A DNA stretch of 64,000 bases. Source: Asterochloris sp. CNOR1 (lineage: Eukaryota > Chlorophyta > Trebouxiophyceae > Trebouxiales > Trebouxiaceae). The stretch is taken from the NCBI GenBank assembly GCA_963969365.1, contig OZ017748.1, positions 620,001 through 684,000 of the forward strand, given 5' to 3'. How positions within the stretch are numbered: the stretch's first letter is position 1; every line of letters starts with the position of its first letter. Made by a program: the position numbers and the translations under genes. This document shows positions 381 through 59,000 of this stretch, piece after piece. Under the pieces are notes generated by a model that worked only from the letters and a program-made list of their open reading frames with translations, had not been told where the DNA came from and ran no database searches.

Positions 381-2209
381 ATGAGAGGCTTGCAGGGCCT
401 GTGCACAAGCGTGCGCCAGGCTGCCATCAGTACAGGGCTGCAGCAGCTGGCAATGCCATCCTTACAACATGCGGTGCCATGGGGGCAGGGAGCAGCTCTT
501 CCCAGCTGTGCTTTGCAAGCAAGCAGCTGGCTACCATGCATCGCATCCAGCAGGGTGAGCATCAAGCCTCCCCCTGGCCCAGCCTTCCTGATGTCATTGC
601 ACTGTCTGCCTTGCATGCATGCCGGAGCCAGGGTGTGCACCCCCCGTGCATGTTGCGTTCTGCTTGCTGCGCTGCTCAGGCTGGCAAAGCATCAGTCCAC
701 AGGAGCAGTCTGTCGCCCAATGCATTGCTCATGTCCCTGCATGATCCAGCGGCAATGTGTCGACCATTGCATTTGCCCTGTCCTGCCTTGCAGGGCTTCA
801 GCGGCAGCTCCTTTGCTGCTCAGCCAGCACAGGGGCAGGGCACCACAGAGGGGGCACAGCTCAATCCTCTCTCCTTTTCGCCAGACCCGAGGAGCGTGTC
901 TCCTTTGGAGGGCGCCCCTGGTAATTATGAGTCAGATTGGGCAGGGGAAGCATGCCAGCAATGCTGTCTGACATGGTATGGGGTAGGTGGCAGCAGCCAC
1001 TCAGCGCTGCAAAGCTGCCCTGGCAGTCAAGGGCTCTAAGCATGCAAGCAGCGCATCTGCTGATGCATGCAGCCCTGCACCATGCGCAAAATGCGTGGTG
1101 ACCTGAGGCTTGCAGCCCAACCCCCCTATTGTTTCCATCGAGCCTTGCCTGCATTGGCAGCAGTGCATCAGACAGGGGCTTGCCACCTCAAATCAAAAAA
1201 CCCTTACAGCAGCAATTAGCATGCCACTACAAAGCATATTGCCCATCAGAATCTCAAGCCCTCTGTCTGCCCGTACGCACACCCCATTTTGTCCTCAATT
1301 ATAGTTGCTGAGTTCCAGATGGAGCGTCGTAGAGGACCTTGTCGCTCAGGCAGTGCTCAGGGGGGCCCTAGCAGTCTGTTACCGTGCATTTCCACATGTT
1401 GCCCTCACCAGCATTGCTTGTGGTGCAGGTGGGGCACCAGGGGAGGAGCCTGTCGCGCGGGCGGTGCTCAGGAAGACACACATCAGCCCCCAGAAGCTGA
1501 ATGACTTTGCTCGCGTTCTGCGGCGCCTGCATGTGGAGGATGCCCTGATCCAGTGTGAGGTGTCCCCCAAGAAGGCTGCCAGGATCTGCCGCAAGGTGGG
1601 CAGGAGCGAAATGTCGCCCAAACTCCCTAAGGTCATGACCTGTGCTGTCTAGGCCTCGTCTGACCTGGCACAGGATGGTTGTCATGAGCTGGGTTCATGC
1701 AGCAGTGAAGTTGTGCTGCATGGTGCTTGCAGCTTGCCGCTATTGTTGCCAGCGGCTGTGTTCAGGACCAGCAATGCGTTTGGCTGCAAGCAGAGTGTGC
1801 AGTCCCATGCTGCACCACGCCAATATCAAAGCTGCATGGAGCATACTTAGCCTGTCTCAGCATGTCCGTTGCCGCTTGCGTTGCTTTGCAGCTGCTTCTC
1901 CCTGTTCATCCTGAGGACTCTTCTTGCTGCCATGTGCTGTAGCTGCTGCTGTCAGCCCAGGCAAACGCCCAGAACAACCATGGGATGGACGTCGACAAAC
2001 TGCGCATAGACAAGATGTTTGTGGGCCATGGACACCATGAGAAGCGACCTGCACCGCATGGGCGAGGCAAGACTGGCACAATCCGCAAACCTCGCAGCCA
2101 CCTCACAGTGCTTTTGACAGAGGGTAGCACAAAGCGCATCACCAAGATTGAGCCTCCCATGATGCTGCGCCACCGGAAACACTTTGATCAAAATATGCTT
2201 CGCAGTTGA
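381..2209 (+). CDS. MRPL22: Organellar ribosomal protein uL22 (large subunit), nuclear-encoded
   Basis: Structural protein of the large ribosomal subunit lining the exit tunnel, here for an organelle. Proposed exons 381-473, 794-920, 1429-1595 and 1943-2209 join in consistent phases (0, 1, 0) to 217 residues. Exon 3 carries the uL22 signature around ARAVLRKTHISPQKL and SPKKAARICRK. Exon 4 continues with SAQANAQNNHGMDVDKL, KMFVGHGHHEKR and PRSHLTVLLTEGS, matching the family through to its beta-hairpin end. The first 31 residues (MRGLQGLCTSVRQAA...) have arginines and no acidic residues, like a mitochondrial or plastid presequence. I favour mitochondrial but cannot exclude plastid. Exons 3 and 4 are very secure. 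Exons 1 and 2 rest on phase and splice motifs only. A 111-bp partial copy of the exon 3 edge lies just upstream of exon 3. Confidence 0.88.
1331..1475 (+). repeat. 111-bp-spaced, in-frame duplication at the uL22 exon 3 edge
   Basis: The segment near 1332-1361 (gaggaccttgtcgctcaggc...) recurs at about 1443-1472 (gaggagcctgtcgcgcgggc...). The offset is 111 bp, a multiple of three, so both copies read in one frame: VAQAVLRGAL upstream and VARAVLRKTH in the real exon. The frame stays open across both. The upstream copy therefore looks like a decayed duplicate of the conserved exon start, now probably intronic or an alternative exon extension. Confidence 0.7.
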
Positions 2210-2779
2210 TGCTTGCTCTGCCAAACCCTTGAAATGATGTGGTTTTACTGATTGTTGCCTATGCCAACGCACTGCAGCTCTCAGGGTGCTGTGCCTTCAA
2301 AGGGGAGGTCAGCTCAAAACATAGACAGGATGGGCACCAAGACCTCAGCCAAACTGGGACATGTACAAAACCAGCAGTCATCATATGTAGCTGAGACTTT
2401 GAATGGAAATCAAAAGCATAAGACTGCCGCTGTACGTGGCAAGTCAAGTCTGCTTTGTTGAACAGGTGTGGGATGTACTCAGAGGCTGCAACGGCAGCCA
2501 GGGACAAGGACCAAAAAGCAGGCACCAATCGCCATGCTGAGGGAAGGGACAGATGCTTGGAACTGACACCAAAGTGCCTCTGTAGCTGTACAGCTTCATG
2601 TACTGGTCAGAGTTTTGGGGCTGATACAGTTCCTGGAGCCTGTTACGCTCTGTGAGGTGCTGGCAGGGTCATTATCAGACAGTCAAGGGAGCTTTTCAGC
2701 TCCACAGGCAGGGCTTGTCATGTTCAAGGGGTACAGGCGCGGCGTTCAGGGCTCCGGTGGGTTCCTGTGCATGGCAGTT
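2210..2779. other. Convergent intergenic region between uL22 and gene A
   Basis: About 570 bp between the stop codon of uL22 on the plus strand and the proposed stop of gene A on the minus strand. Short frames occur on both strands, but none shows a recognisable motif or a convincing splice context. It presumably holds both 3' untranslated regions. Confidence 0.5.
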
Positions 2780-5700
2780 TCAGGCGGCAAGCTGTGCGCC
2801 CCTGATGGCATCACACATGATGGTGGCGACCTGCAGGTAGGGCGGACAGCGGTCAGGGCCCACAGAGGATGTCAGTGAAGCAGTCAAGTGATCCCGACAA
2901 GGTACAGGGGGCAGGGCCTCAACTGCTGCTGCAGAGCACTGAGTGAAGTGGCCCTGTGTTCAAGTCCCAACTCTGACAGCTCAAGAGGCTGCTGAAGCAG
3001 CACGGTAGCCAGCTGCTGGCTCAGTCCCACGCCTGAGCAGGCCCCACACACGCGGCTTGCTGGCAAGCAGCCATTGCACATTGAGGTGCAGAGCAAGTCT
3101 GTTGGGTTGTTTGCAAGGGGTGACATATTGCCTCCAGTGCTTGAATGCGATAAGGGTGGCTCGTCACCCACCTCATGCAGGGAGTGAAGGCGCTCAGATG
3201 CCTCAGAGCTGAGGCAGTCCAGGTCAGCCTCATCGTAACTACTCATGCCCAGGGCCTCCTGGCGCCGAGCGACCAGCGTGAAGTACTGCTCTTGCGTCTC
3301 TCCAAGGGCAATCAGACGACTCTGCAGGCAGCCACATGAACAACCATGCAGTGCTGTTGAGGCTCGCCAAGGGGCCTGCAACAACTGCTGGAGCTCACGG
3401 GGCACAGCCCAGAGGCCCATGGGCCTCCTTTTGGAAAGTCTGTGCTGTGCTGAAGGCGGACACATGAGCAGGGATCAGACGAGGGTCACCAAGGGCCATG
3501 CAGCACCTGCCAAAGCACATGGGCACGACTGGGCTATGCTGACTGTGCAAGGCCATGCTGTGCTGTAAGCCCCAGCAGGTTAGTGCTTCGCAGAGCATCT
3601 CACCACAAGTGGGCAGCTGGCCTGCGTCTGGATGGTGATGGGCAGACGCGACTGGCTCAGCTCATAGTGCAGCAGGTCGCCGCTGGGCAGAGTCTGCAGG
3701 CAGGCAGCTTATAAGTTTGCTTCAAGAGAGTTGCTTGCAACGGCCAGTCAGCATGTGCCGCAGCAGCTACAGGCAACATGACTGCAAAATGCCTAGCCAC
3801 ATTGGCACCATGTATGCTCGAACACGCCAACCAGCAGCCGGCCAGCAAACTGCTAATGGCCAGACTGGCATCATGTGTGCTTGAAGAGGTCAGTCAGCAG
3901 CAAGCAGGCTTGGCAAGTAGCAGCACAGCTATCAAGTGATGGTTGAGACAGAGCGCCATGCAGAAGAAGACAACAGCACCTTCATGCTGCTGCACGCTGC
4001 ATGTAGCTCCCAAACCCCTCACTTCTGCTGTCACAGGTCAGGACAGTGCTGGCCTGTCAGGATGTGCAGGCCCGCCCACTCCTGGCAATGCAGATCCAGG
4101 GGAAGTTTAGTGCTTGCAGCCTGTCAGACAGCCGCCCACCTTGCAGCACAGCACCCGACGCGCAAATGGCTCCTTGATGAACCCGCAGGGCACATCGCTG
4201 TTGTTGGGCAGGCTGAATTCAGGACCCCACTCCAGATCACTGACCACCTGCAGTGCAGCATGTGCCATGGCTTCAGCAAAGAGACCATCTGCATGACTAA
4301 TGGAGCAAAGCAGCACACATACATACAGTGAAAGCACACAAGTTCATGTACTTTGCGCGGATAGCAGGATGCACGCCTGCCGTTCGCAGAGGCACGGATA
4401 GACATACAGCATGACTGCAGCTACCAGAGGGCACGCTCGCCTGCTGCTGGCTCGACAGCAGGCAGTTGGCGGCTGGACTGCTGTCTCTGCACAGTATCAT
4501 GCCTGTGAACATTGTGCAGCGCCATACACACCAAATGCCAGCTGCATTGCTTACCTGCTGCTGGCTGGAGAGCAGGCAGGTGGTGGCTGAGCTGCTGTAA
4601 AGGTGGCGAGCAGGGCGGCTGGAGGTGCTGAACAGGTATGGGGCAGCCAGCGGGCCGTGGGTTGCTGACACCACCTCATCTGACTGAGCGTCTGCATCAG
4701 ACCGCGGTAGACTTTGCTGGCAGCAAGCAGAAAGCCGCTGTGCAGCCTTGGCAGACTTTGCTTGCAGCAAGTAGACAGCTGCTGTGCAGCCCAAGCCACA
4801 GCAGGCTGCAAGAATAGGCCCCAGACCGTATAGGCCAGCAGGCAAGTGCAGGGTGGGCATGAAACCATGCAACAACAGCTGTGAAACACTTGCTGCAGAA
4901 GCTGCCTAATCAGGAGCTGGCAGGAGCTGGTGACAGCGTCGCAGCACCTTCTGACCAGACAACTGGGCAGGAAGAACCTGCCGGCAGAGCAAGGAGAGGG
5001 CATAACCTTGCAATCAAAAAAGGGCTGACAAGGTTTGCCATGGTTTCAGTTCAGCAGCGCACCTGAGGCTTGCTGCAGCACTCCAGCAGAGCCTGCCTCC
5101 CCCAGAGATGACAGCGCCTGAGCCAGCCGGGGCAGCAGGGACGCCTGGCACTGCAGAGTGACGATTGCGCTGCCGCGCTCGTCCACGGGCTGCACCAGAG
5201 TGCTGGTGATGCCTGCCCTGTGCACCTGGGGGCTATCAGCCTCCACCTGCGGGCAGGATGGCCAGCGCTTAGAGGCTCCTCAGCCTTGTGTAGCAGCTGT
5301 CAACGCTCCTGCCCTTGATCAGGCACGAATGACGATGTCTGCACAGTTCCAGATGCCGTGGACAGGCCATGCACCATATGGTGCTTCATTGAGGGACTTG
5401 TGATGTCGACATCAAGAAGGTAGCAACAGCCTTTCAGGACAGGAGCCCTCAAACTCGCCGTTGGGCCAGCTTATTGAAGGTGCAGGTGTGCACGGTCTGA
5501 AGCACGTGGCTATAGCAGACTGCGCTAAGCAGCAGGCAACGACCCAGTGCGAGCTGCAGGATGGCCTGGCAATGAGAGGACGGCTAGCAGTTGCCCTAGA
5601 GACTCACCACCAGGTAGCTCTTGCTCTCAGCATCAAACGGCAGCCCCGGCACAGCCAGAGGGTGCTCCAGGGCAGGGGCAAGGGCCAGGCCGCTGGTGCC

Positions 5701-12099: not shown

Positions 12100-15000
12100 T
12101 CACTGAAGGTTGCTCTTGAAGAAGTCAAATACGCGGCTCCACGCCTGCTGCTGTGAGTTGGCTGACCCGGTCGGCAGGCCGCCAGCTGCATGGGACACAC
12201 AGAGAAGTCACACACATGCAAGGGAGGCAGCTTGAGTGGTTGAGCCAGGCTGAGGATGTGGCAGGCGCAAACTCACTCTTCATCTTTGCGTCAATGTCTT
12301 TGTGGGTCCGGTCGTTCATAAACTGCAAACAGCAGCAGAGATTGGAGGCCTGGAGGGACGCACTAGAAGCACTGCACAAAATCACACCACTACATGGTAA
12401 AGGAGGTGAAGCAACGCAGCCACCATTTTGTCCCAGCCTGTGCAACCTCTCACTTACAGGCAGGCCTCTCTAGCAGCTCTCACCCCATGGCCCTCGCCAG
12501 GATATGTGAACAGAGTGGCATGGCTGTTGCCAGCATCAGTGATTTTCTTCACGAAGCCTTGCACCACCTGTCAACATGAGGGCACAGGACTTTGTGACAG
12601 GTCCTCCAGTACCCTGCTCATGGAACAGTGCAGCAGCATTCGCCTGCTGAGACACACTGTGGCTCAGCCACTGTATGGCTGCAGGGACAAGTTTCGCACA
12701 CAGCGCTCTGTATGACATAGGTACGACATGTGCCCTGGCCACACCATGAAGTGCAGCTAAGGGTGCCAACTGCTGGGCCACATTGGGGCTGAGCGATGAT
12801 TGCTGAACATGGCGCCGTGCACAGACCTCAGCTGCATGCTGGGGAAATGTGTGGCAGCACACCTCCTTCTTGGCAAAGTCCATGCTGTCATCTTCGCCCA
12901 CGTGGGCCTGAACAGGACACTTGATCTTCTCTGGCTGCAGGCACAGTGATGGAGGCCTTCAGATGGGCTAGCTTGAATGTTGGATTGAACAAGCTGTCGT
13001 AGGAGGCAGTGTTTGGTGTGACACATCCTGAAACCCAGCCTGAGGCCAAGCGCAGCAGTAAAGTCTGGCACTGGCATTGATACACAACGAGTTGGCGCCA
13101 ACACGCTGCATGCAGCTGGGATGGCAGCCAGCATGGCCAGGCATGTAGATGCACACAAGTGACAGCGCTGCATGCTGCCTGCATCAGCGCATGGGGCTGA
13201 ATCTGCCCAGCTGCCCAGCACATGGCCTTGAAGCTGGCACACACGGCATGCATAGGTGCAAGCTAGTGCGGCTACCGCAGGTAGCCTTCAGTGGTTCATC
13301 TATCTATGGTCCGTGATGCACCACACTCACCTGGGCTGCCTTGGGGTCAGGTGTGCCGTAGAAGGGTGCACTTGCGTTGACAAAGCCATTCTGGGCAGCC
13401 AGCAGGCTGAGGGCGCCACCCATGCAAAAGCCAATCACACCAACCTGCAGCCCACAGGGTGTCCATGTCAGAGGGCAGGGTCCAGGCAGCCTGCCTTGCG
13501 CTGCTCAGGGCCAGTCAGTGACAATTTAGTCGACTGCAGCTGAAACAAGCAGAACAATGGAGCACGCTGTGGCTCAGCGCCCCCCTTTCCAGGACATGTA
13601 CCACCAAACTGCACCAGACACCCTCCTGCCAGCAGGCGAAAGCCATGTACATGATGCCTTCGCTACAGTGCAGCCTTGAGACAATGGTCCCTGGTACCAG
13701 GTATCAGGAAGGTGGCCTGGCTGCAGGCCTGACACCTGCAAGTCACTTACTCTGAGCATCTGCTGCTCAAGACTTTTCGTGCATTGTGCATACCCGCCTG
13801 TGTGGCTGAGGGCTTAGGCAGGGAGCATACTGCAGCGGCTGTGCAGAAAGGACAGCAGGGCGCTGAGCTGACTGAGCTTATCACAGCGGCAATAGTCAGC
13901 TAACATAGCACTGCACCAGCACGGAGCAGCATCACAGACCACAATTTCAGGTCAGCCATAGGCCTTGCACAGCCACCTTGTTCGCTCCCTGGTCACGAAG
14001 GTACTGTGCAGCAGCCCCTATCTCCTCAACGGCGCGCCCCCAGTCAAGGTTGCCCATCAGCTGCATGGCAGAATGAATCAGTGTGAGGCAATATCCTTGA
14101 CAGCACGGCCCCCAGGGAGGTTGCCCACCAGCTGCAGGGCAGACATGGTCGATATGACACAGAGAAAGCTCCTGAAAGCACGCCAATCGCAAAGGATTTG
14201 CCATCAGCTGCAGGGCAGCTGTGGTCAGTGTGAGGGAGTCTGTTTGACAACACGCCCCCAGTAAGGGTTGCTGGTTAGCTGTAGGGCAGACACGGCATTC
14301 TAAGGGGGCCCCTAGCAGTCCCTCTGACAGCACGCCCCTGGTGTGCAGACATAGTCACGTTTGAGGAGTGCAGTTATGCTGCCCCCTTCAACGAGCCTGG
14401 GCAAGCCAGTCTTTGCCAAGATAGCTGCATCTGAGGTGCTGTACAGCCACAGGTTGCACACAGAGGAGCCCACAGATGGGCCTGCAAGTCGGCACACTGA
14501 CTTGCACTCACCGCTGCACACCCAGTCTCCATGTGCAGGCAGGCTCAACCTGGCATGCAATGCACCCCTGCAGCAGCCTCGAGCCATCCATATGACCGAC
14601 AATACACTGTTCAGGGATCAAGCTGCTGGCACCTGCCACAACTTGCCAGCATAATGCAGCATGACAGCAGGAAGTCGCAAAACATTTCCATGGCAGCCGC
14701 TAGAGTGCCTTCCAGCAGGCTGCTGCATGACATAACAGTCGGCTGGCCAACAACACAGCAGAAAACATAGCATGCCACTGCAGACGCAATCCGCACGTGA
14801 GTGGCCTCCTCTGCATCCACGCCAATCTTGCCATGGTACAGATCCGGCACCAGGACTGCCAGGCCAGTGTTCTCATGGATCTTCAGGGCCTGCAGATAAA
14901 TGCGCTGGCCTGGTGAATGCGGGATGTTGCCGTGGCAGCAGGATGCAGGGATGGACTTGGCGGCAGGGAGCATGCGGTCTGGCAGCAGCCGGCATGCAGG

Positions 15001-15698: not shown

Positions 15699-18600
15699 AT
15701 GCTGAGTGTGCTAGTGCCGCGGTATGTCTATGCTGTGGCAGTGATGCTGCATGGCCAGGCTCTGCCTCAGGTAACCCAAATGTCGACTGCAGCAACATGT
15801 GAGGTTTACAAGCTTCACCATCCACTGTTCATGCAGGAGCTGGCGGCAAAGGCCTGTTTATGTAGGCTAGAAGTGCAGCATGAAGAGGTAAGGTGCCTGT
15901 GAGCGTGTGGCAGCATTATCTTATTTAGCAATGTGCAAGTGTGGTGTTGCAATGCAGGCTGGCTCTGAGCTTCTGCAGCAACACCAGGAGGTGCATCTTG
16001 AGGCTGGCCGCTCCCGCACCACCACCTGGTGAGGCCACCATATTGGGACCAGATGGCTTGTCCGAGCAAGGCTTGCGTCAAAGCCCGAGACTGGGCCACA
16101 GCTCTATTGCATACACACCTTCAAAGATGCTCACCCACACCTTGGTGCCTGCAGGCTGTGGGTAGCCGATGGCATGCTGACCACCATTGCAGATGCCACC
16201 CTGACCGTCACACTGGCAGTCACCCCGCAGAAGGCCGTGCCATTTGCATCTGTTGGTGACAACCAGCTGCATGCAGAGCAGCAGGGGGGCACAAAAGTCA
16301 CTAAGACAGGCGTGAAGTTCCAGCCAGGCATGGCTGCAGCTGTTGCACGGCCAGCTAGCGCAGGAGAGGCAGGCACCGGTCAGAAGGGGCTGTTTAGCTG
16401 GTGCCGAAAGCTGGCCAAGCGGCGGCAGGTGGCCAGTGGGGGTCAGGAGGAGCAGGACAACGGAACTGAGCAGGTCAGCTCACCACTCAAAGCTGCTTGG
16501 TGAAGCCATACTTCTGTCTGCCTGCCTAGAGATGCGTGTCTGCCTAACATGGTCGGGACAGCCGGACCTGCATTTGCCTTGCCGGGAAGGGGAGAGTCCA
16601 TGTGATGCTCAGAGGCAGCAGATTGCCCGCGGGTTCATGGGGTGCAGGGCCATGGTGCTGCACAAGAGTCTCCACCCGCAAGGTTTTGATGCTTTAGGTG
16701 GGGCATCCACTCCTGGTTGGAGCCACCGCATTGACTTTGCATGGCTTGACTGTGGTGCAATGTCATGCATTTCCTGTTTGCTGATGGCTTGCAGCCACAT
16801 CTGACTGTGAGGTCGTCACATCCTGTTTGCCCGCTCACTGATTATTAGGGAGAGTTGCACACCTGGTGCATGATCTACACGAGTTTGCAGACGCAGCCTG
16901 GCCCCACTGACACAGGTCCAGTCCCTCATAAGCCTGCCACATGCTGCTGCAGGCGCCGCCTTCATTGGCAGGGAAGCCAGGGGCAGGGGGTAGGGCTGCT
17001 AGCCCCCAGCAGCCACCAGAGGGCAAAGAAGTTGCAGGATCGCTGCAGAGGCAGGTCTTGCAAGACTCTATCTCTCTGCAGGAGGTGCTGATGAGCGCCA
17101 CCCTCGAGCGCAGCTTCGAGCTGAACCCGGAGGTGCGTCCCCTGCCAGCACTGCACTGATGTGCAAGGCCACAGGTGCCCCTCACAGAGTAAGGGAAACC
17201 TGAAGGGTTTGCCGCTACGTGTGCTGCACGTCTTGCCATACCCTTCCACACCCCTCCAAAGGGTGCGTCAACATCCCAAGGTTGATGCAGTCCTGAGAGG
17301 CTCCTTGAATCTGTTTGCTGGACCAGCAAGCCAGCCTCCATGTCTGCAGAGCTGGGGTGCAGGGCATGAAGATCCACCACTTCCCGTCTGTTGGCAGCAT
17401 GCTGGCTATCCAGCAGCAGCCCGCATCAGCAGCAGCCCGCATCCTAAAGCTACAGTTTCACCCTGGCACGCCAGCTGCAAGCCTCCTTGCATGCCCTTTG
17501 CAGATCCCTGCTTGTGCTCCCCTGCAGGGCGGGGGCTGCCTTGGGGTCACGGTCAAGATTGGGGCGCCCCAGCGCGGGCCGCACCACCTGGTGCTGCAAC
17601 GAAACCACCCTGGCACTGTTGTAGTAGGTGAGGGGGAGCCTCTGAACCCCACCAAGCAGGGCCAGCCTGCCAACCAGACCATGGTATGGTGTTAGGTTTT
17701 GTGCTGTCACCTTCCCGCTCAAGCATCAGGGGGAAGTGTAGTGTCATCAAGCCCGTGTTCTGGTCGGTGGAGGGGAGCACTGCGATGGAGACCCAGCCCC
17801 TGTCCAGCAGAACCACAGCGGCATGCCAGCACCCTGGTCATGCCAGCCATGCTGTGGTAGGCGTGTGCTGTGTTCTTTGCAATCCTGCGTCTGGCAGGTC
17901 CTAGGCAGGGGGACTTTGCCATGCCCCGCCTGTTCAGCCCCATGGTGTGCCCCAGCATGATGTCTGCATCTGTGTCCTGCAGCTATCAAGCCTGCTGAAC
18001 CAGTCCTGCATGAAGTGCAAACGCACTTCCGCTAAGGCTTGCACGTGGATGACGTCCCTGCCCCTCTGCCCATCCTTGCTTTAGCTGGCCCCACAGCAAA
18101 TGCAGTGCCGCCATGCACACCACAAAGAGGCAAGCTCATTGCGCTGCTGCACCTGCCTGCACAGCTGCAACCTGAAACAGCAGCGCCGTCCTGCAGGCAA
18201 TGCCTGAAATACCAGAAAGGCGCAACATTGCCTGCGCATGTCCATTTAGGCCAACCAAGTCATTCATCGCTGCTTGCAGACCACAACCTGGACGATCTGG
18301 TCACGCTGCTGCCCCTGCCAGCCAAGATGGCACGCAGGACGCCCCGCCAGTCGCGCAGCACGCATGACGTGCTGCACGCGCCTGCACGGGTGGTCCCAGG
18401 GGCTGCTGATCAGGCGCCCACCGCTGGCCTCCACGAGGGCCTCCCAGCCCAGCACAAGCGCACAGGCCTCGATACCATGTGAGGCTGCCCTTGACGCTTG
18501 GGGCCCTGCATTGCTACAGGGGCGCTGCTGCTTGGTGCTGCATAGTTGTGGGCCCTGAACATGAGGGCCCATGAGGGCCCATCTGGCCAGTATGGCGTGC

Positions 18601-21933: not shown

Positions 21934-23708
21934 GGGTGCCGGTTGTGTCCCAGCTGCTTGACCGTACACCACCTGGTAACGCAGTTGTCAGGGACATGGT
22001 GCAGCTTCCTGAGGTAGCGCACATTCTTGAGCGGCTTTGTGGTGCTGTCAGCAGCTGGCGGGCCAGCAAGGCACACCCAGGACATGCAGCACTGGGTAGA
22101 GGCATCCACCACTGTTGGCCTGATTCTGCATGCACCTCCCTCCTTCCGGACCATAAACATTCCTAAAATTTGTCTTGACAGTGACATCAGGGCAGTGACA
22201 CCCCTGCTGCAGGCCATCCTGGCTGGGCTCCCTCTGCAGGCGGGCGGGGCCGGACACGGTGTCAGACCCTTCCAGCAGTGGCACGGCAGGGGCGGCGCAG
22301 GCAAAGGCTGCGCCTGCCCACCCGCCACCGCGGCAGGGGCCCTTGGCACAGCTGGGGGTGTGGCCAGCAGAGATGCGACATCCCACCACAGGTCAGCCGC
22401 AGCCATAGGCGCCCTCTGCAACTTGACGTCACAGAACGTTTCGCAACGGGTGCCCGCTCGCTCAGGCAGGGGCCCTTTGGCATGGCCGGGTCTGTGGCAT
22501 AGTGCCCCATCACAGGTCAGCCATTGAACGGCAAGCTGCAACCCATGCTGCTGCAGAATCGAGGCGGGAGTCTCGCGCGAGCAGGCGGCCCACCAGCAGC
22601 CGGCGCCAGAGCGGGACGGGGGGTGACCCCTTTCTTGAGCATGCTCTCTCAGGCGACAGGTCAGCAGTGGCTGTATGCAGCCGTCACGCATTCTGTGCAC
22701 CTTGCAGACTCGGCAACAATTCAGGCATACAGCCAGCCTGTGCAGCACCCGCAGCAGCACCTCAGTCTACAACAACAGTCTGCCATTCCCTCGCAATCTG
22801 CCAAGTGTGGCAAAGTAAGCAACATCGTCATGTCCAGCACTTGCAGCACCTTTCATCTCGTGCTGAGCCATCAGTAATGCAGTCAGGTGCTGCTGAGGCC
22901 TGAGCAGAGGAGGCATGCATGCTTCCCACCAACCTGAGCTGACAGCCTTGCTTCCTCCACCATGCTTCGTCAAAGTGGGCAGCCCCTGCGGGAATCTCAG
23001 CCCCTGCAGGAGGTTCAGCAGAGGAGGCATGAGCAGCACATACTGTGCATGCTGCCTCCCCGCTCTGAGCCAGCAACATTTGTGGTCACGCTGCCTTTCA
23101 GCTCTGAGCCAGCGTCCAGACACCTGCTGTCGAGACGGGATGCTCCTGCAGGATGCTCAGCAAAGGAGGCGTGGGCGGCTCGGGCAAGCTGCGTCCCAGC
23201 GATGGCAGGGTGACGGACCAGCTCAGCGAGGCCCATGGCATGCAGCAGCCCTGTGAGCTGACAGTGGAGTTTGAGGAGCCAGTCAGTGCACAGGTGGGCT
23301 AGAGTCTTGGTGTTTCTAAACTCTTGTTGCCCCTTGTGTGCATTCTTGCTGATCATCATTGTGAGTGGAACCCTTGTAGTGCCCAGCTGGGTGTGTGCAA
23401 TGCAGATCTTTAGTAATTGACTTCCGGAAGCCGCAGAGGTAGCATACAGTGCATGAGGATGTCCCAAGATTTATGACTGCTGTTTGGGTCAATCTGCAGG
23501 AGCCTTGTGAGGGCATGCCTTGTGATGACTTGTTTGTGATGCTGTATAGGCGGCAGGTATTGTGTGCCTGGGGTATGCCCTGCTTGCAATGGCTCACGAG
23601 GAGGGCACACCTTCCCTGAGAATCACCACCAGCCAGTCAGCCAGCAAACTGTCAGAAGCACTGAACATTCACCCAGATCATGAGGGAAGTAATGGGACCC
23701 CGTCCTGA
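21934..23708 (+). CDS. Region B2: exons of an unknown plus-strand gene, or 3' end of gene B
   Basis: Probable exons include 21954-22013 (LLDRTPPGNAVVRDMVQLPE, followed by GTAGCG), a stretch near 22524-22660 (NGKLQPMLLQNRGGSLARAG), one near 23153-23294 (CELTVEFEEPVSAQ followed by GTGGGC), and a final exon near 23550-23708. That final exon joins in phase and ends LSEALNIHPDHEGSNGTPS before TGA. The product is not recognised. It may be a separate small gene or the C-terminal part of gene B. The junctions between 22.0 and 23.1 kb could not be resolved. Confidence 0.35.
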
Positions 23709-42100: not shown

Positions 42101-43860
42101 AGCAGCTACCTGTCACATAGCAGGCAGCCCGGGCTCACCAGGCAGGTCTCCTGCGCTGGTCACACCCAGCATCAGGCAGCCCTGGCTTGCAGCAGGCAAG
42201 CCGCGGTGAGGGTGGCAAGTGCAAGCTGCGATTTGTTCTCTGTGGCAGCTGGCTAATGCATGGCAGCTTACCAGGCATGTCTTCGCTGCTGTCCACACCC
42301 TCTGGCAGCTTCCCCGGCACCGAACAGTCCGTCATGTATAGTGAGTCCTTGCTGCCTGGTCTGCCAACAACACTGTCGCTGATGGCCTTGCTCACGAGGC
42401 AGAGGCAGCTGATGGGTTTCTTGGTCAGGCGGCCATGCGACCACTGTGGCGTCTGCAGGGCAGAAGACTTGCAAAGTCTGAATTCTGTCGGGCAGAAAAC
42501 TTGCTGAGTCCAAGTCTCTCAGGGAGAAAAGTCCTTCCTGCATCATGCAGGTCTCCAGCCCTCAAAGTTGGTCCCCCAGCCAGGTGAGTTGCCAGTGGTT
42601 CACCTGTGACTCTCCGCAAGCTGCAGGTGCCCTCTGACAGCCCGGCAACCCGCTTTTTGGAACCCCACCTGTGGCGGGCAGGGGCGCTTTCACAAGACAG
42701 CCACTGTGGGCAACAACCGCAACGCCTCCAACATGTGGACTGGCTGAACATCCTTCCTGACCCAGCACTGGCTGCACTCTCCCATCCCAGCACCATCAAG
42801 CACATGGCCCTGATCTCATGCTTGCAGCGGAGCCTGATGTGGCAGCCGTCATGATTGAGGGTCAAGCCGCTGGAGGTCCACGTGCAATATGGACACCCAT
42901 GCTTGCAGATTTGGGGCGCAGAGCTGCACCAGAAACTGGAATAGGAAGGCTCAGCTCGATGGTGACCAGCTGTTGCCTTGCTAGGTAGGCAGGCTTGCTA
43001 GCTGGGCCCAGACTAGGCTTACACGCGTGAAGGTGGGCACTCAAACCAGACCTAGGGTGGTTCCTGACCACTTGAGTGCAGGGACACAAACAAGAATGTA
43101 CGCTGGCCTGCTGCTCATGCGCTGGGCAGGGGGCCTGCTTTGGCAACTACAACCCTGAAGCATGCTGACTGTAAAGTTGTTGGACAGCACAGCTGTGGCC
43201 CAAGCCTAAGTCACAGATAAAGACAATGTTCACAAGTAGCCCAGGCTCACCGTAATACTGGCTGTCGCCTTGTTGGCCAAGCCATCGCCAGAAATCCGGG
43301 AGTAGCGCTTGTCCTGAAAGGTTGCCTTCACCACATCGTAGACCTGCCGCAACGCCACCTCCCAGTCTGAAGCACAGGCCCCTCACAGTCAGCGCAAGCG
43401 CCTTCACCTTGTCAATTCATGCCTCGGTATCATGTTACTGTCTGTAGCACAGTGGCCTTGAGTGTACAAGTCTGCCCGGTCAATTGAGCTGCATAGGGCT
43501 TGCTCATGCATAAGGCATCCCAGATGTTGGCCTCAGCGAGCTTTCATTTGTGTCACCATATGATGGGGCATGGCCTGGGAGGCAGAGGGGAAGGAGCATG
43601 CTCTTGCTGACAATGCAAGCACCAGCACTCCGCCTGCAATAGCACCCTGAGCCTACCTCACCTCCAACTGCAAATTCAGGAGCCCAGCTGGGACCTGTGC
43701 TGCTAGCTGGCCCCTCCCCTGGCCAGCCGCCAGCAGGCTTGGTGGCGGCATTGCTGGAGGCAGATGGTGCCTCCAGGGTGACATTTGCCCCACCCCGCCT
43801 GCTCTGCTCCCTCACAAAGTCCTCAATTTGTGCTAGATCTGCAGCACAGCCAGGGACTTG
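36180..43860 (-). CDS. Gene C: unknown, probably nuclear multi-exon protein
   Basis: Not recognised. Probable exons on the minus strand, 5' to 3': near 43690-43860 (LAQIEDFVREQSRRGG), 43250-43380 (SDWEVALRQVYDVV, DKRYSRISGDGLANK), 42285-42410 (CSVPGKLPEGVDSSEDMPG), 41240-41560 (RACQHTAFHLETKKRRSW), 40530-40760 (LLPLEFYLEEGIPLVLHV), 39970-40060 (DMEELSSAYILEKLAWAE), 39008-39170 (VERLTDLVQGRLRVQPW), and a large exon near 37480-38715. Others follow near 37080-37130 and 36829-36951 (AFSLYMELRHAGQHGQAE). The large exon is low in complexity, rich in Gln, Ala, Ser and Gly. It has basic clusters such as HFKRQREG and AKRAKREREG that look like nuclear localisation signals. Boundaries and gene number are uncertain. 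Confidence 0.4.
38740..39065 (-). repeat. Four-copy array of an exon donor in gene C
   Basis: The real exon end on the minus strand (GEQLSKQQ followed by GTCAGTCC) appears on the plus strand as gactgacctgctgc at 38995. Copies occur at about 38928 (gactgacgtgctgc), 38835 (gtctgacctgctgc) and 38745 (tggtgagctgctgc). Each is followed by a cagggctgc...caagtgcccctgcgtcagg-like tail. Spacing is 67, 93 and 90 bp. The exon edge plus donor has been copied into the intron. Confidence 0.8.
42015..42325 (-). repeat. Three-copy array of another gene C donor
   Basis: The real exon end (VDSSEDMPG then GTAAGC) includes on the plus strand gtcttcgctgctgtccacac near 42279. Copies lie at about 42146 (gtctcctgcgctggtcacac, preceded by caccaggcag like the real junction) and 42024 (gtcttctgctggccacaccc). 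Spacing is 133 and 122 bp. Confidence 0.65.
42452..42542. repeat. Short tandem repeat, about 31-34 bp units
   Basis: Units beginning gggcagaagacttgcaaagt (about 42458), gggcagaaaacttgctgagt (about 42490) and cagggagaaaagtccttcct (about 42520) form a two-and-a-half copy degenerate repeat inside a probable gene C intron. Confidence 0.6.
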
Positions 43861-44149
43861 AGGGGACTGTGCACTAGTAGCATGCCAGCAGCATGTGAGA
43901 GCTCAGTAGCGCCCAAGGCCAGACATCAGGCCTGTGACCCTCCCTGCAGAGTGGATGCGGGACACCTGCCAGCAATGCCACAGAGGGATGGTGAGCTTTG
44001 GGTGTGTGGTGTCAGTAGTGCGCAGGCTGGTGGAGGCAAGCAAGCAACACCACCAGGATCCACTCACGCTGAAAGGATGCTGGTGGACTTGTCTGTTCAG
44101 CAGTGTTGGTGGTGGTGCTTTGCAGCCCTGCTCCTGCCTGCAAACCTGG

Positions 44150-45745
44150 AGCTACACCACTGGCCACTGGCTCCCAAGTCCATGCATGTGCTGGAGGCTA
44201 GGCAGACTCTCACCAGCAGTGGTGTCCTGACTGGCGGCCGCCATTGCAGGCCCCAAATCTGCCTGCGCTCGCTGCTGGGCAATCAGTTGCTGCTTGATTG
44301 CAGCCTGACTCCTCTGCTCCGGATGTTGGGCCAACTGATGCTCATGCTTGGCTCGGCTTCCCTGGGCAACCTCTGCCTCGTACACAATGAAGCGCCTCTG
44401 CATCAGCCGCACATTGTGCAGCTCGCTGGCGCGCCCTGCAGCCATGTGGCTATGTGTCAGCTGCCCGTCTACTGCCAGTCAGCTGCTGCTTTCAGACAGC
44501 AGTGTGGCCACCGCCCCCCCGCTGCCTACTGCTCGTCAGCTGCTGCAGTCAGGCAGTGGAGTGGCGATCTCTCGGCTGCTGCCCGCTGCCCGTGAGCTGC
44601 TGCAGTCCGGCAGTGAAGCAGCAACCTCTTACCTGCTGCACACTGCTCATCAGCTGATGCTGTCCAGCAGAGGCTGCACCTCCCCAACTATCTGCACACC
44701 TCTCGGGGCTTTGCTCTGAATCCACATGCCGATCTCAAGAAGTGGCTCTTGCCCCTCTTTGTGTCAACCCAGCTTGTCCACACCATTCAGAATTGTTGTA
44801 AGCAGGCCACTGCAGGAATTGTGGGGCGTGCTCACCGTGTGCGTACTCCTGCATGCTGCGCAGGCTCAGGAAGTGTGGGTCCACAACCAATCCAGGGTAG
44901 ACCTCCCGCAGCATGGCTGAGTAGTCACAGACGGCCTGCAAGCACCGGTGCTGATCAGCATTGCTGCCGTGCCTGTGACCTGCCATGGCCGTGCTTCGCA
45001 TCCCGGGGGCACCTCCTGTCAGACAGCACTCAGTGGGAGAGTGATGGCGCGTGTGCATGCCTGGAACCACCACCTTCAGGGTCGGATGGTAAGGCGGCCA
45101 GGCCTGGAAGCAACAAGTCCAGGTGCGAATGGCGGCGCCTGAGGCTTGCACAAGAACCTGCTTCGTTTCTGTAGAAGAGGCGCTGTCCCTGAAAGGTTGT
45201 TCACTTTGCATGGTAAGGACGCTAGGCGGCTCTTCATGCAGGCCAGTGTGCACCCTGCCTGTCTTCTCTGAGGAAATCCCGGCTGCTGCACTTGCACCGC
45301 CAGGCTGCAGCTTACGACTGAAGGCATCAAGGTGAGGGATGCAAGGCTGCCATCCCAACGCTTCAGGCACAGAAGGCAAAGATGTTTGTGCCCGTGAACC
45401 AAAGGCATCCTTCGCAAGACAGACTGCATACAGTGCAAAGCTGGTCAGGGCTGTGCATGCAAGCGTTGGACTGTGGTCTTCGATAAGTGACGACCGGGGT
45501 GCAAGCTCAGCTGGTCCACCCAATGCCAGGCAAACTATTGCCGTCACTCTGCCCACCGTGTGGAGGTCAGCAGGGCTGGGGATGCCAGGCTGCCCATCCC
45601 GGCGCTGGTTCTGAAGGCACTGCGTCTCAAAAGCATCCCGCACCACCAGGGCTGCCATGGCACCTGCCCACCCACGGTAGGTCTGTCCCTGGCCGTAGTA
45701 CGCCCTGCAGCAGGGTGTTTGTCTGAGTAGTCTGGAACTGGCATG
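44150..45745 (-). CDS. Gene C2: unknown exons, possibly the 5' part of gene C
   Basis: Probable exons on the minus strand: near 45560-45700 (YYGQGQTYRGWAGAMAALV), 44833-44945 (VCDYSAMLREVYPGLVVDP, then donor GTGAGC), 44635-44691 (HQLMSSVQQ, then GTAAGA), and 44215-44445. The last contains a charged, probably helical stretch (RLMQRRFIVYEAEVAQG). A frame stays open for over 300 codons from 45658 to 44735, but part of that is probably intron. The product is not recognised. I could not connect all junctions in phase, so this may be one gene with C or a separate gene. Confidence 0.3.
44460..44695 (-). repeat. Four-copy, about 57-66 bp array of a gene C2 donor edge
   Basis: The probable exon end before GTAAGA at about 44633 appears on the plus strand as cacactgctcatcagctgat. 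Degenerate copies lie at about 44586 (ccgctgcccgtgagctgctg), 44524 (cctactgctcgtcagctgct) and 44468 (tctactgccagtcagctgct). Each shares ctgc-cgtcagctgctgcag-cagcag. This is a minisatellite-like ladder abutting the real junction. Confidence 0.7.
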
Positions 45746-53090: not shown

Positions 53091-56000
53091 TCACCCTGCA
53101 GAGCCAGGCAAGACTTTGTCAATATGACCCATCAAGACCGACAGCAGGCCAAACTTTGAGGAAAGCAAGTCTTCCTGATGAGTAAGCTTCATTGGGAGGC
53201 CAGAGTCACAATTCAAAGCAATGCTATGTGCTAAATGCAACATGCTAGGCACAGGGCACCATCTCACCTCATCAAATTGGACCATGGGGAGGTCTGCACC
53301 AGCCAGCTTGGCTGCCCCATTCCCACTGCGAGAGGCGTTGCTGTAGCCAGCAGGCGCAAGACCTGGGTCCAGCGTCTGCTGGCTGGCCGTAGGCGCGGCT
53401 GCTGCAGGAGGACCGACATCAGAAGTTGCAGCGCCATTGGTACCCTCCACCCAAGAGGGGGACGTGCGCTCCATGCTGTCGATCAGGGCTGCTGTGTCCT
53501 CGATGAAAGGGTCTGGCCCTGCCTCAGACTGCTCCTGCACGGGAGCCTCTGGGGTCCGCATGGCCACTTGAGGACCAACTTGACTCAGTGCAGGCTGAGA
53601 GGCCGAAGAGGCTGGTCTGCAGCCAGGGGGCAGAATTTGAAAGCGGGCTTTACGCTGTTCTGCTCATCATCTGACACACAATTGTGCAATGACTGCCAGC
53701 TTTGCACGTGGGCACCGAGTCACTTCAGCCAGCAGGACAAGCCAGCAGGACAAGCAGCTGGCAGAGGCTGGTACTGCCGTGTGACCTTCAGAGCTTGCTG
53801 GGACCCTGAGGTGCAGTATGCATGGTGCTGCCTGTGAGTCGAGGCGACAGCACAGCTGCAGGCTGCTGTCTCACCTCAGCTTGGGGCGGGTGAAGGGCGA
53901 CTGCTCAGCTACAGCAGCCCTGCTCTGTGCCCCTTGGGGAGCAAGGAAGGTGCGCAAAGTGCGGGCAGCGATGCGAGAGGACACCTTGGAGGCTAGGGAC
54001 AGGGGGATCCTGCAGACACACGACACTGGGTGAGGGACCAGAGACTGGAGCTGGGTGAGAAGCAAGCAGGCGCTGGGAGCAGGCAGAGCACACTCTGGGC
54101 ACACCAAGGGGAGACTTTGCAGATATCTGACACCAGGGAAAGGCCATGCATCGGTCACTGGGTGAGGGACATGGAGGAGTGGCACAACGGAGGAGGCAGG
54201 GCAAACCCGTACGCGTAAGCTGCAAAGCTGGGTGCTAGACACTGCCTGAAGAGCATTGCAGTGGAGCCCCATTCAGAGTGGGGCCAGTGCTCGCATGCTC
54301 ATAGCAAGGCAGACTGTGGAGCACAACGGGACGCCTAAGTGAGAGTGAAGTTTACACCAGCACATCAGGCTGCAGGCATTGGAACAGGTGCAGGCCCTCC
54401 TGTGCTGCACAGCATACACTTGCTTGCTAGAACAGTGGTTGCAACCCCATGCTCTGTGTGGTGCAGCCCCGCACCTAAGCGCCTCCCATCTGGCCGCAGC
54501 CGGCAGCTCTGCAGCCTCCTGAGCGAACCACTGCAGCATCTGAGCAGCTTGCTGAACCTGCTCCAGCGGGGATCTGGCAGTCCCAACTGCAGGCTGAGCT
54601 GGCGACTGCAACGCTGCTGCCGGCGCTGCCGTTGTCACTGGCCTCTGAGGCGGCTGGCCCTGCTGCTTTGAAGTGACCGCCCATCGCTGCTGCGGCGTGC
54701 GAGCCGTCGCAACCGACTGCCGGGCAGCAGCGATGTGAGAAGGCAGCTGCTGCCGCTGCGGGGCAGCAGCCGTCTGGGAGGGGGCCCCTGCAACCTTCCC
54801 TGTGGCCGCAATCTCCTGCATAAGCCTGATGAGGCGGTTGATGCCGTCAATCTGGAAGCGGTCATCCTCCCCTGCAGCATGCAGGTGTCTGCAATCTCGA
54901 TTTGGCTCAGTTTGCACGAGCTCAGCACAATGCATATGAGGCAATGTTGGCGCCGGCAGCTTCTGCCCAGCCCCATAGGTAACAGCAAGAAGCCAATTGC
55001 CTGTGCAGCAGGGAAGCAGCCCCCGATTTAGGAGAGGTGAGCAGGCTCAGCGGCCATTCATGGTGAGCTTGTGGCTCTGTCTGTCTGTCGTTGACAAAGG
55101 ATTCAGCAGGCCTCTGCCACCGTGTCAAGCGTTCCTGACATGACCCCGACAGGCCATCCAGCCTTGGCAGCAGCTGAGCCATCAAAGCAGCCCAGCATGA
55201 AGTGGTTGCGCTTGCCCTGACAGGGTCAGCAAATGACCTCAGGTCTCAGCAGCTAGAAGCAGGCAACAGATGACCTGAGGACGCTTACCAGCAAGAGCAG
55301 GTAGCGACAGGAGGCCCTCTAGCAATAGAGACCCAGGAAGCCCCCTGTACTGCCCAGCCGCAACTTCACGCTCCTTTCCTGCCACCTGCATAGGGTGCAA
55401 GGTCTTACATGTGAACACTGCCAGTCAAAGGGTGCTGCCATGGGAGGGGTGCTACAGCAAAAGGAGCATCACACCCTGTCCTGCAGCCTCTTGCAAAAAA
55501 GCATCGTGACCTAACAGGACAGCATGTGCAGGCCAGCTGCTTATTTTGACAGGCTGCTAAGGTTGTAAGGCCCCGGTGGGAGAGAAGGCTGATGGTCTCA
55601 GGGTGGGGCACATGGCAGGTACGCATGATGCACTGTGGGCTGCAGCCGGCTAGAAAACTCAAGGAGACCTTGGCCACAGCCCTCCCGGCAGAGGATCCCC
55701 CTTTCCCTTCTTCTGTATCTGCCCCTGCTCACCCTCCAGGAGCTGCATTGGGCACTGCCGCATTCTTGACACGGCATCGTCCAGCATGGTGAACAGAGAA
55801 CGCTGTCAGCCATGGGCCTGCCAGTACAAACCCCGTCTGCACTAACCCCTCTCCAAGAGCTGCATCAGGCGCTGCCACATGCTTGATGTGGCATCGTCCC
55901 GCATGGTGGCCCAGGGGATGCTGTCAGCCACAAGCCCTGCCACTGCAGCCAACCCCCTCTGCAGCACTCACCCCCAGGAGCTGCATCAGGCGCTCCCGCG

Positions 56001-59000
56001 TCCCTGCAATCGCGTCATCCAGTGTGGTGCGCAGGGCAGCATCCACCCCCTTGGCCAGCTCCTCAATCAACATCTCGCGCACAAAGTCTCCCTCTGGACC
56101 TAGCAGCAGCCCGAGCGCACTGCTGCCTGCAGGCAGGGGTGCACATGAGATATTGCAGTAAAGATGTATGCTGTTTTGCACGCAGTCTTGCACTGGGACC
56201 ACAGCACTTTGCTTGACCACACTGCTGCCTGCAGCAGTCAACATGAGTGGTGTCTCCACCACTTGTGCCTGTAGTTGCACGTCAAAGCACCTCCGGTCGA
56301 GGCCAAGCAGCAGCACAAAAATCATGGCTCCGGCCTGCAGTAGATGCTGCACTGTGACTTCTTTAGCATTACATTGCCTCATGAAGTCAAATCCCATGGC
56401 CAGCAGCAGTCCACTTGAGGCCCAGCAGCAGCGCCAGAGAGCTGCTGACTGCAGCAGAGACAGCGCCATGGCTCCTGTATGCAGTTGATGTGGAGCTGGA
56501 GTGCCTTGTAGTCTGGTGCCTCATGCAGGCAGTCCCTGTGGCCTGCAACAGACTATGTGTTGCCTGCACCAGGCAAAAGGCTGCGCACAGGTGGGTGGGT
56601 GGGCCCTGCAGCAGCCTGCGGCCTGCAGCAGATGCATCACATATATTGGCACCACAGCCGTGTCTGATATAATGAGCCACGTGGTGTGCCCACCCGTTGA
56701 CAACAGGCACATACAGACTGCCTCTCAAAGCAGTTGCCCATGCCACCACCAACAGCTTGTCAGTGTAGGTGCAGACAGCACATACCAGTGCACTCTCTTC
56801 AGCAGAGGCCAGCAGCTCACCTGTCTCAGATCTGATCCTGTCCCCTCCCTTGGTGACCCACTCCTGCCGCGCAGGGCTGCGCACAGCCTGCTGTAGCAGG
56901 GACTCCAGCCGGGCGAACTGCGGGGCACAAAAGCAGCCTTTAAGGCCACGATGCTACAATCAGTTAGATGGCTGGGGTAAACATTGCCATGCGGACCAAT
57001 GCTTGCACCAGGCACAAGACCCGGCTCCTGCTGTACTGCGCTGTGCACCACTCACAGAGCAGAACTCATCCAAAAGCTGTACAAGCGTGCCAGCATCCTG
57101 AACTGCAGTGCATATCCTACAGAAGAAGCAGCCTTTCCACTTTCTGGCTGAGCAGCTGCTACCTGCCCTTGGCTTGAACTCTCTGTCGTACATGCAAAAC
57201 CCACCTGAAACCTGCCGCGGCTGTACAGAAGGGTGCGCAGCGTATCCCGCAGCTCCTCACTCCGCTCAGTCAGTAGACGCCGTGCAATCCAGGGGTAGGC
57301 TGCTCCAAGGACCTTATAGTCTTTATTGGCTGACAGTGCAATGCCCTGCAGGTAACAGTGACTTACAGGAAATCGTGTCCAGACTGGACTTGGCCAGAGT
57401 GCACACTCCAGACTCAACTTTGCGAAGGGTTTATCACCAGCCACTCCAGGAGCATGGCATTGATTCCATTGCAAGCTTCCTACAGCCATGTCGGGCAGCA
57501 CCCTGCCACCCTGCACATTGGCTTTGGCGCCAACAAGCTGCCTCACCTCCAGTACGCTGAGACTCCTGATCAGTAAAGTGTAGTAAGCTGGGATGGCAAA
57601 GCCGTAGTTGTACATTGTCTTCCCCAGCTCCCCACTGAGATCTGAGAAACTGAGGTTGGCCACGCCCTTTTCCAGCGCCCGTTGAAATACACCTGTCAGC
57701 GCTGGGGCCAGCTCTGTGCGGTCTGAGCCAGCGGGGAGCAGGCCCAGCGTGATGAAGTCGGCTGCTAGGGAGTCGAATTCGCGGTTGACCAGGTGCAGAG
57801 TTGCCTGTATCAGGGCCCTGTACAAGCATTACACTCAAGGTCAGGCCTTGGCACCTCAGCAGCTCCTGCATATGTAATAAGGCCAGGTGCTGCAGAGGAC
57901 ACCCTGTCAGGCTAAAAGGGGGACTTGACAGTGCAAAGAGCAAATTGTGCATAGCAGGCCCCTCCCTGCATGGCAGCAGGTGCGCAAAAGGAGCACCTGC
58001 TGCAGGTGGGTCAAGGTTTGGCCACCACTTGTATGCCAGCAGATCGAGTCCTCATCTGGAAGGAATCAGGGTCTCTGCGGTGCTCTGCAGCTGAATAACA
58101 GGACAAAGCACACACCTTCTGATGGGACTGTCAATTGTGCCCATCATTCCAAAATCGATGTATGCCAACCTGCAGAAGCAAATGCCATACTGTCAAAAAA
58201 TTCTGGTTTGGCAAACACAATCTGTAAAGCCAAGCCTGTAGAGCCCCAGGCGTCAGGGGAGCACAAGAACAGGTCAGGTACAGATCCCACCTGCCATCTG
58301 CCATCTTGAACAGGTTGCCAGGATGGGGATCTGAGTGATAGTAGCCCTGCAATCAGACAACAGCCGTAGCAAGCAGAGGATGGTGCAAGTGGCAGGCACA
58401 CCAAACGCCTTTATACACTGGAGCACATGGCCAGAACAGTGCCCAATTGGCCAGATAACTGCTTGAGAATCTTTGGTGTACGCCAGGCGGCGGCACAGAC
58501 CCATCTTAAGGAGGCTGTCTGGAGAACATCGTGCATAGAAGTGCAGCAGCCTTTCCTATTCAATATCTGCACTGCTGAGCAGAATATTCCAGTGCCAGCG
58601 AGCAACCATGCTCTGACAAATCCCCATGCAAAAGGGCAATTGAGCTTACCTCTTCCAGCATCTGCTCCAGTGAGCAGCGCACGCCAATCTCAACCAGCTT
58701 CAGATCATCTAGGTTGCCTGTCCCATCTGTAGCTGTGCCCCCACTGCGCAGGCGGGTCCCCTCGACCCACTCCATCACCAATACCCTCTGGGTTGTGATG
58801 TCAGTGTACAGGTGGGGCACATAGACACCCTGCAGCACCACAAACAGGATGGGCAAGAAACCGCACTCAGAGGGGTATGCTCTCTGATGTGCTGTCAACC
58901 CATCAGCCTCATTGTGCCTCAGCCATCAGGGCGACGCAGCACCACTCAAGACTGCTGGTGCACAGCCCACAGGAGTGGCAATGCTAAGCCGCAGCGCGCA

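Follow-up and report, generated by a model that had tools for sequence, protein, structure and literature searches.

Local direct copies of exon edges in introns of the green alga Asterochloris sp. CNOR1

Why should the sequence that spans a splice site occur again, in decayed form, within the adjoining intron? This question is raised by a 64,000-bp stretch of Asterochloris sp. CNOR1 DNA (C3:620001-684000 in an assembly of 56.4 Mb and 21 contigs; "the window" below is this whole stretch), for which a first-pass annotation had described splice-junction sequence copied into introns. We analysed 304 kb, comprising 264 kb of C3 (window included) and 40 kb of C8, or about 0.5% of the genome, and found local direct repeats with a clear excess at splice junctions. 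The safest reading, to which we give a probability of about 0.5, is that old local direct duplication was filtered by coding selection and left decaying exon-edge copies in introns.

Direct repeats at splice junctions

Repeat pairs were detected by gapped banded self-alignment at lags of 30-400 bp and a score S of at least 38. This yielded 171 direct pairs; local dinucleotide shuffling, repeated nine times, left 0-3, and seven control bands of equal lag width gave 2-7. Ungapped self-matches (S of at least 17) occur at 0.1-0.6 per lag at lags 20-250 and at 0.00 (rounded) at lags 600-3000. With exon edges as anchors, 19 acceptors and 17 donors, out of 389 each, had a copy in their own intron, while searches in other introns gave 0 of 389 in each of two trials for acceptors and for donors. 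The shuffles, the control lags and the other-intron searches rule out chance similarity due to the CTG/CAG-rich composition, and the copies are thus closer to the exon edges than unrelated GC-rich sequence would be. Only 10 inverted pairs reach the same score, which disfavours templated insertion in both orientations.

Gene structures were obtained from a purpose-written, self-trained gene model, which predicts 46 genes with 610 introns in the 304 kb (median intron about 250 bp, median exon about 111 bp) and the consensus splice sites CAG/GTGAG for donors and CTGCAG/G for acceptors. Pfam domains are present in all seven window proteins submitted, some of them trimmed (two of the nine window models were left out). 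The best matches of the DLH and ABC1K proteins among named sources are from trebouxiophyte algae (Trebouxia with 65-66%; further matches in Botryococcus, Apatococcus, Myrmecia and Coccomyxa). For ABC1K and a ceramide glucosyltransferase, entries P0121 and P0241 from source 'lgn', which we take to be assembled public reads, have contigs of 3966 and 1749 bp. The corresponding genomic spans are longer (8.2 and 5.5 kb), so that the entries represent spliced products of these same window genes. Their spliced alignment gives 56 junctions, 54 of which are predicted by the gene model; conversely, 22 of the 76 junctions in the two models are absent from the transcripts, some of them lying past the transcript ends and some belonging to false small exons. 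The DLH model is fused to its neighbour and misses the true first exon.

Pairs were classified by the position of their two copies, and the counts were compared to a placement null in which each pair is shifted to a random place in the gene models; members of one array are not independent of each other. Pairs with one intronic copy, the other copy straddling a predicted junction (intron/junction pairs), were found 69 times, compared to 32.7 ± 4.9 expected, so that the claimed overlap with junctions above random placement stands. Counts for the other classes are 43 (56.5 ± 6.3 expected) for intron/intron, 14 (22.6 ± 4.0) for intron/exon, 15 (14.1) for junction/junction, 16 (14.8) for exon/exon, 7 (12.5) for exon/junction, and 7 (17.7) for pairs touching intergenic DNA. 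Restricted to the transcript-verified junctions of the two genes, the count is 6 straddling pairs out of 7, with 1.63 expected under the null (P=0.00075). The transcripts also change the class of two ABC1K pairs: the pair at 56099 turns from junction/junction to intron/junction and that at 56323 from intron/junction to intron/intron. Copies cover the exon edge most densely (0.11 at acceptors, 0.09 at donors). Within the intron, coverage dips to 0.06 at 40-60 bp from the junction; within the exon, it has dropped to 0.03 by 50-59 bp for acceptors and by 80-89 bp for donors. Circularity of the gene models was rejected as the cause of the excess, as 85 of 88 junctions stay when the intronic copy is scrambled.

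Self-alignment of the window defines 31 arrays, 27 of which contain or touch a predicted splice junction. The window pairs number 24 (21 intron/junction, 3 intron/exon) and are spread over seven gene models. Tandem Repeats Finder by itself captures this in part, as its 15 rows coincide with 7 of the 31 window arrays. The DLH and ABC1K cases are as described, with four acceptor copies (by eye) in DLH and an exon end with two copies in ABC1K. The commonest case, by contrast, is a single pair of copies rather than the 2-4 copies which had been reported, and the lags of the 69 intron/junction pairs range from 50 to 342 bp (median 133). The arrays and pairs of the window are:

1282..1472, plus strand: copy pair, lag 110, second copy over an acceptor (exon from 1429) in the ribosomal protein L22 gene model
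4435..4598, minus strand: copy pair, lag 114, 84%, exon end and 6 nt of donor (exon from 4555); the intronic copy has GC instead of GT
14022..14295, minus strand: DLH array, acceptor and exon start (exon up to 14060) with three further intronic copies upstream, by eye
18114..18329, plus strand: copy pair, lag 161, acceptor at 18280
20273..20546, plus strand: copy pair, lag 233, acceptor at 20518
22332..22522, plus strand: copy pair, lag 133, 88%, exon end and 7 nt of donor (donor 22392)
23000..23200, plus strand: copy pair, lag 142, acceptor at 23152
26750..26854, minus strand: ceramide glucosyltransferase pair, lag 65, TGCAG and 35 bp of exon, transcript-confirmed acceptor (intron 26785-27358)
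27483..27740, minus strand: ceramide glucosyltransferase pair, lag 216, TGCAG and 37 bp of exon, transcript-confirmed acceptor (intron 27520-28089)
29654..29858, minus strand: ceramide glucosyltransferase pair, lag 143, exon end and 5 nt of donor, transcript-confirmed donor (intron 28893-29801)
30607..30812, minus strand: ceramide glucosyltransferase pair, lag 172, 88%, TGCAG and 29 bp of exon, transcript-confirmed acceptor (intron 30636-31193)
33367..33505, plus strand: copy pair, lag 74, acceptor at 33488, prenyltransferase gene model
34485..34778, plus strand: copy pair, lag 228, acceptor at 34735
36665..36847, minus strand: copy pair, lag 119, donor at 36829
37196..37532, minus strand: copy pair, lag 277, donor at 37480
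37634..37918, minus strand: exon-internal repeat (for contrast), lag 75, in frame
38720..39062, minus strand: two-pair array, lags 91 and 266, donor at 39002
39479..39631, minus strand: copy pair, lag 83, donor at 39597
41439..41634, minus strand: copy pair, lag 112, acceptor at 41518
41970..42300, minus strand: copy pair, lag 144, donor at 42272
44469..44704, minus strand: true tandem array, period 57, about 3.4 copies; the gene model inside is uncertain
55734..56036, minus strand: ABC1K donor array, exon end and donor at 55971/55972 (transcript-confirmed), two intronic copies, lag 117
56099..56564, minus strand: ABC1K acceptor array, acceptor edge at 56126/56127 (transcript-confirmed), decayed copies upstream in the intron

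Exon-edge copies can mislead gene finders, as seen in the ABC1K intron, where two small exons were wrongly called within 56099..56564. An intronic copy of the exon start at 56415-56448 (and 56218-56228; SSSLALLLGLK compared to GSSALGLLLGP) was predicted as an exon, and the transcript protein contains neither this copy exon nor the neighbouring small predicted exon.

Age, decay and splicing of the copies

All but 5 of the 171 pairs have an identity of 62-88% (median 0.76). Identity exceeds 0.9 in 2 of the 157 pairs with at least 30 aligned bases, and one of the two appears to be an artefact caused by copies that overlap. Were duplication steady, young pairs should be plentiful. Since hardly any pair is above 90% identity and many lie at 65-88%, the process seems, by this reasoning, to be old and to have since stopped or slowed. 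The scarcity of young pairs, together with the missing codon bias described below, could also suggest that the copies were born divergent. We do not favour this, because, of the two ABC1K intron copies, each matches the other better (49/63) than it matches the exon (46/63 and 45/64), and because the spectrum of differences between copies looks ordinary (414 transitions, 386 transversions). The copies cover about half of their spacing (median aligned length/lag 0.56; above 0.8 in 16 of the 69 intron/junction pairs), so that most pairs are not arranged head to tail.

The intronic copies look neutral. Differences between exon and intronic copy are distributed evenly over the three codon positions (275/1086, 246/1096 and 279/1093, or 0.253, 0.224 and 0.255), and 36 of 43 gaps in the exonic stretches of these alignments are not multiples of three, so that the claim that copies keep the reading frame fails in general and holds anecdotally. 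Exon-internal pairs show a weak codon bias (0.236, 0.281, 0.297), and their lag is a multiple of three in 13 of 16 cases, while the lags of intron/junction pairs fall evenly by modulo 3 (21/24/24). The splice dinucleotide AG is kept in 35 of 48 acceptor copies (35 of 45 with the junction inside the alignment), with the full TGCAG in 29 of the 35. For donors, GT is kept in 18 of 41 copies (15 of 31 with the junction inside the alignment).

In ABC1K and the glucosyltransferase, the six array junctions found in transcripts are all outermost sites, and no copy occurs in the protein; the DLH copies are missing from six aligned protein homologues. The use of outermost sites, together with the in-frame lags within exons, bears out the proposal that such duplications are tolerated as long as the outermost site works. 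Rows of alternative splice sites, which had also been proposed, find no support, given that GT is retained in 18 of 41 donor copies and that the copied sites are not used in the two available transcripts. It is hardly credible that the intronic copies are real alternative exons, or that they resemble duplicated or mutually exclusive exons: one ABC1K copy was coding-like enough to be called by the gene finder, but the copies are absent from the two transcript proteins, lack codon-position bias and carry frameshifting gaps.

Possible origins of the exon-edge copies

According to the reading introduced above, short segments (usually about 55-60 aligned bp, 30-400 bp apart, with some true tandem arrays) would have been duplicated directly throughout genic DNA. 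Copies placed within coding sequence would be kept mainly if in frame, while those placed within introns would be kept freely. A duplication over an exon edge would place a second exon edge and its splice motif into the intron, with the outermost original site staying in use. The intronic copy would then decay neutrally while its exonic partner, held by selection, changes more slowly, and such pairs would be recognisable for longer. This, combined with the density of introns, may explain much of the junction excess, with filtering as its probable main cause. Introns would grow in the process, as the first-pass annotation had fairly inferred. Part of the excess may be mutational, as intronic copies often end at CTGCAG-like words and the acceptor consensus is CTGCAG. 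TGCAG or CTGCA is found at 30 of 172 ends of intron-internal copies, compared to 6% of random intron positions, and CTGCAG is the commonest hexamer of the window (243 in 64 kb). Breakpoints at such a common word would make acceptors natural hot spots. This idea is weak, since TGCAG is present in the middle of 9 of 86 copies as well, since neither the ends of exon-internal copies nor exon-side ends are enriched for it, and the signal may be produced by alignment-end effects.

We simulated random tandem duplication in collapsed gene structures, with coding selection and followed by decay and the same detection, in 26 settings. Simulated events fall within introns, across one junction, or encompass a whole intron (the last not in the m1-m7 series). 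In the C3 stretch we observe 75 straddling and 41 intronic pairs, a ratio of 1.83. Simulated ratios are 0.55-3.6 in 21 settings and 11.9-45 in the other five, which are old or indel-rich; by series, they are 0.83-1.06 (five settings), 0.95-3.3 plus 11.9 and 45 (six), 0.55-2.0 (eight), and 1.2-3.6 plus 13.6, 17 and 27 (m1-m7, seven settings). As these values bracket the observed one, the ratio alone requires no preference for exon edges. The proposal that a process favours exon edges is therefore not needed for the ratio, but it retains some appeal, as no setting combines straddling copies of short, motif-bounded shape with fairly complete intronic copies.

This shape is apparent from several observations. 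Straddling copies of at least 80% identity have a median length of 0.30 of the lag, compared to 0.73 for intronic copies, and 30 of the 74 intron-side ends of exon-containing copies fall into a peak at 3-15 bp beyond the junction. In a test which selects on the exon edge alone (35-bp anchor, threshold 34; 13 acceptor and 9 donor matches), acceptor identity is 0.82-0.84 in the exon and 0.62-0.92 over TGCAG, while donor identity is about 0.56 over +1 to +6 and about 0.31 beyond. On the exon side of acceptors, identity also falls at once, to 0.31, beyond the anchor, which may partly reflect selection by the test. The alignments of three transcript-confirmed acceptors end directly after TGCAG. In some pairs the intron part keeps residual similarity (p=8e-7 when compared to other pairs; 13 of 64 pairs reach z>2).

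A number of results weigh against filtered duplication as we propose it. The exon constraint which it assumes is not visible: the position-3 difference ratio is 1.07 (95% confidence interval 0.93-1.22), and exonic and intronic parts diverge alike (0.280 and 0.288) in the 25 pairs with both parts aligned, which makes it less likely that strong exon constraint is the main cause; in 12 complete pairs the values are 0.246 and 0.286. Of the pairs with at least 80% identity, 2 of 27 straddling and 5 of 12 intronic ones are complete. On the intron side of acceptors, identity is 0.42 at -7 to -12 and 0.35 at -13 to -20, and it reaches chance by -21. The occurrence of TGCAG in copy middles and its lack of enrichment at exonic ends, mentioned above, belong here as well. 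None of the 26 settings reproduced all observed features. Those with few indels (m1, m2, m7) leave 30-58% of the straddling copies of at least 80% identity complete, and the short-copy settings m3, m4 and m6 leave few intronic pairs (straddling/intronic 150/11, 54/2 and 52/3). Setting m5, with many long indels (178/50), comes closer, with a median of 0.34 of the lag for straddling copies at 80% identity, yet its intronic copies are equally short (median 0.36, compared to 0.73 observed). Incomplete pairs in C3 have a ratio of 61/21 (2.90), compared to 0.49-1.82 simulated, and complete units one of 14/20 (0.70), compared to 0.61-2.43 simulated with the exon part capped at 60 bp and 1.11-2.36 under full tolerance.

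A purely random tandem duplication with tolerance and decay but zero mutational preference is a possible alternative, to which we give clearly less credit than to filtered duplication. Many settings bracket the straddling/intronic ratio, and m5 also yields short straddling copies; still, no setting jointly fits the shortness of these copies and the number and completeness of intronic pairs, and with exons changing at 0.7-1.0 of the intron rate under full tolerance the simulated ratio is 1.04-1.21 rather than 1.83. The motif-bounded shape leaves room for a mutational bias linked to junctions or for selection of decoy sites. We entertain, tentatively and as rather improbable, that the exon edge itself is the unit, with the splice motif and about 35 bp of exon either copied into neighbouring introns by a past process in this algal lineage or selectively retained there, so that perhaps 5% of splice sites would have kept a decoy copy no more than a few hundred bases away.

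It is doubtful that a mutational process was directed at junctions, so that exon edges, extended by a few nucleotides beyond the splice motif, were copied into the adjoining intron. The peak of intron-side ends and the sharp ends at TGCAG would fit, as would the doubling of junction-spanning sources beside the rarity of purely exonic ones (14 compared to 22.6 expected), and weak pairs lean the same way (54 compared to 37.1, and 49 compared to 71.2; about one-fifth to one-third of these are due to chance by control counts). However, few purely exonic pairs are also predicted by a tandem origin, straddling ones are not in excess among complete units (above 0.8 of the lag; 16 straddling and 20 intronic over both stretches), and copies of similar length exist within introns and within exons. 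To our knowledge, no mechanism acting at the DNA level would see splice sites. It is less probable still that the intronic copies are kept by selection, for example because they act as decoys or as regulatory signals in splicing, with the other parts of an old tandem duplication being left to decay. The frequent retention of AG and of the full TGCAG, and an identity that is high over exon edge and motif and near chance beyond, could be read in this way. Retention of GT in just 18 of 41 donor copies argues against it, as do the disuse of the copied sites in the transcripts of two genes and the high frequency of CTGCAG in the genome, and we estimate that an AG retention of 73% is within the neutral decay of one copy at 76% pair identity. 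Should the sharp stop past the splice motif be upheld genome-wide with junctions from RNA-seq, it would need either duplication linked to splice sites or selection of decoy sites.

Relation to known duplications and introns

The closest known kinds are boundary-crossing tandem duplication and repair-mediated proximal duplication. For the former, a single case is described in the potato RdRp gene, where a tandem genomic duplication across an intron-exon boundary created a new intron (PMC4974935). There, as in the alga, local duplication over an existing junction puts a second splice site and a piece of exon into intronic sequence. In the two algal genes checked by transcripts, by contrast, the copies are not used and sit within an intron that already existed; the algal pairs are numerous, old and, for the most part, not arranged head to tail. 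Repair-mediated proximal duplication in vertebrates is described as producing short nearby copies, some with splice sites, with an activity declining over time; the exon example is inverted, the average distance of 1.2 kb is partly an effect of the method, and 4 partial exon/intron donors are listed for 824 duplications (PMC2671141). Closely linked copies with a spacer are common to both systems, and the algal excess is found at short lags alone (median aligned length/lag 0.56). They differ in that algal pairs are overwhelmingly direct (171 compared to 10 inverted) and of intron/junction type in 69 of 171 cases. Occurrence in either orientation, which the inverted exon example might suggest for the vertebrate process, is thus not borne out in the alga. 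As to breakpoint signs of the repair type, such as microhomology, deletion or filler, the copies are old, and the words TGCAG/CTGCA occur at their ends and in their middles at the frequencies given above.

Intron gain by duplication of an AGGT-containing exon segment, as outlined in a review, predicts a donor and an acceptor in register, one intron length apart (PMC3443670). It resembles the algal case in that tandem duplication of genic DNA enlarges non-coding sequence. A general birth of introns in register is not seen: among 479 introns, the mean in-register match of donor and acceptor flanks is about that of permuted pairs, and a score of at least 36 is reached in 3 (null 0.10). These three introns are candidates for birth by tandem duplication. 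A few arrays are truly tandem like intronic minisatellites (e.g. 44469-44704, period 57); most consist of two old copies with a spacer and lack the high-identity head-to-tail arrangement of minisatellites or variable number tandem repeats. Dispersed introner elements were not seen for the two arrays searched: in a whole-genome search, which skips very common words, the DLH and ABC1K arrays (2 of the 31 window arrays) each matched only themselves, with no near-identical dispersed copies. Among the matches listed in a literature search (titles and starts of abstracts, with most subscription journals outside its reach), none dealt with exon-edge copies in introns at scale.

Intron growth and the duplication or loss of splice sites are usually argued from single cases. 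The dozens of exon-edge copies with measurable decay in 304 kb would allow the fate of spare acceptors and donors to be tracked in bulk.

Two other regions deserve mention. At 62155-64000 of the window and beyond, a RecQ-type helicase and a phytanoyl-CoA dioxygenase domain are fused in the gene model; these are probably two genes. At C3 ~559425-564452 (L004-L005), two long back-to-back open frames of 3444 and 1581 nt on the minus strand differ from their intron-rich neighbours and possibly represent a mobile element.

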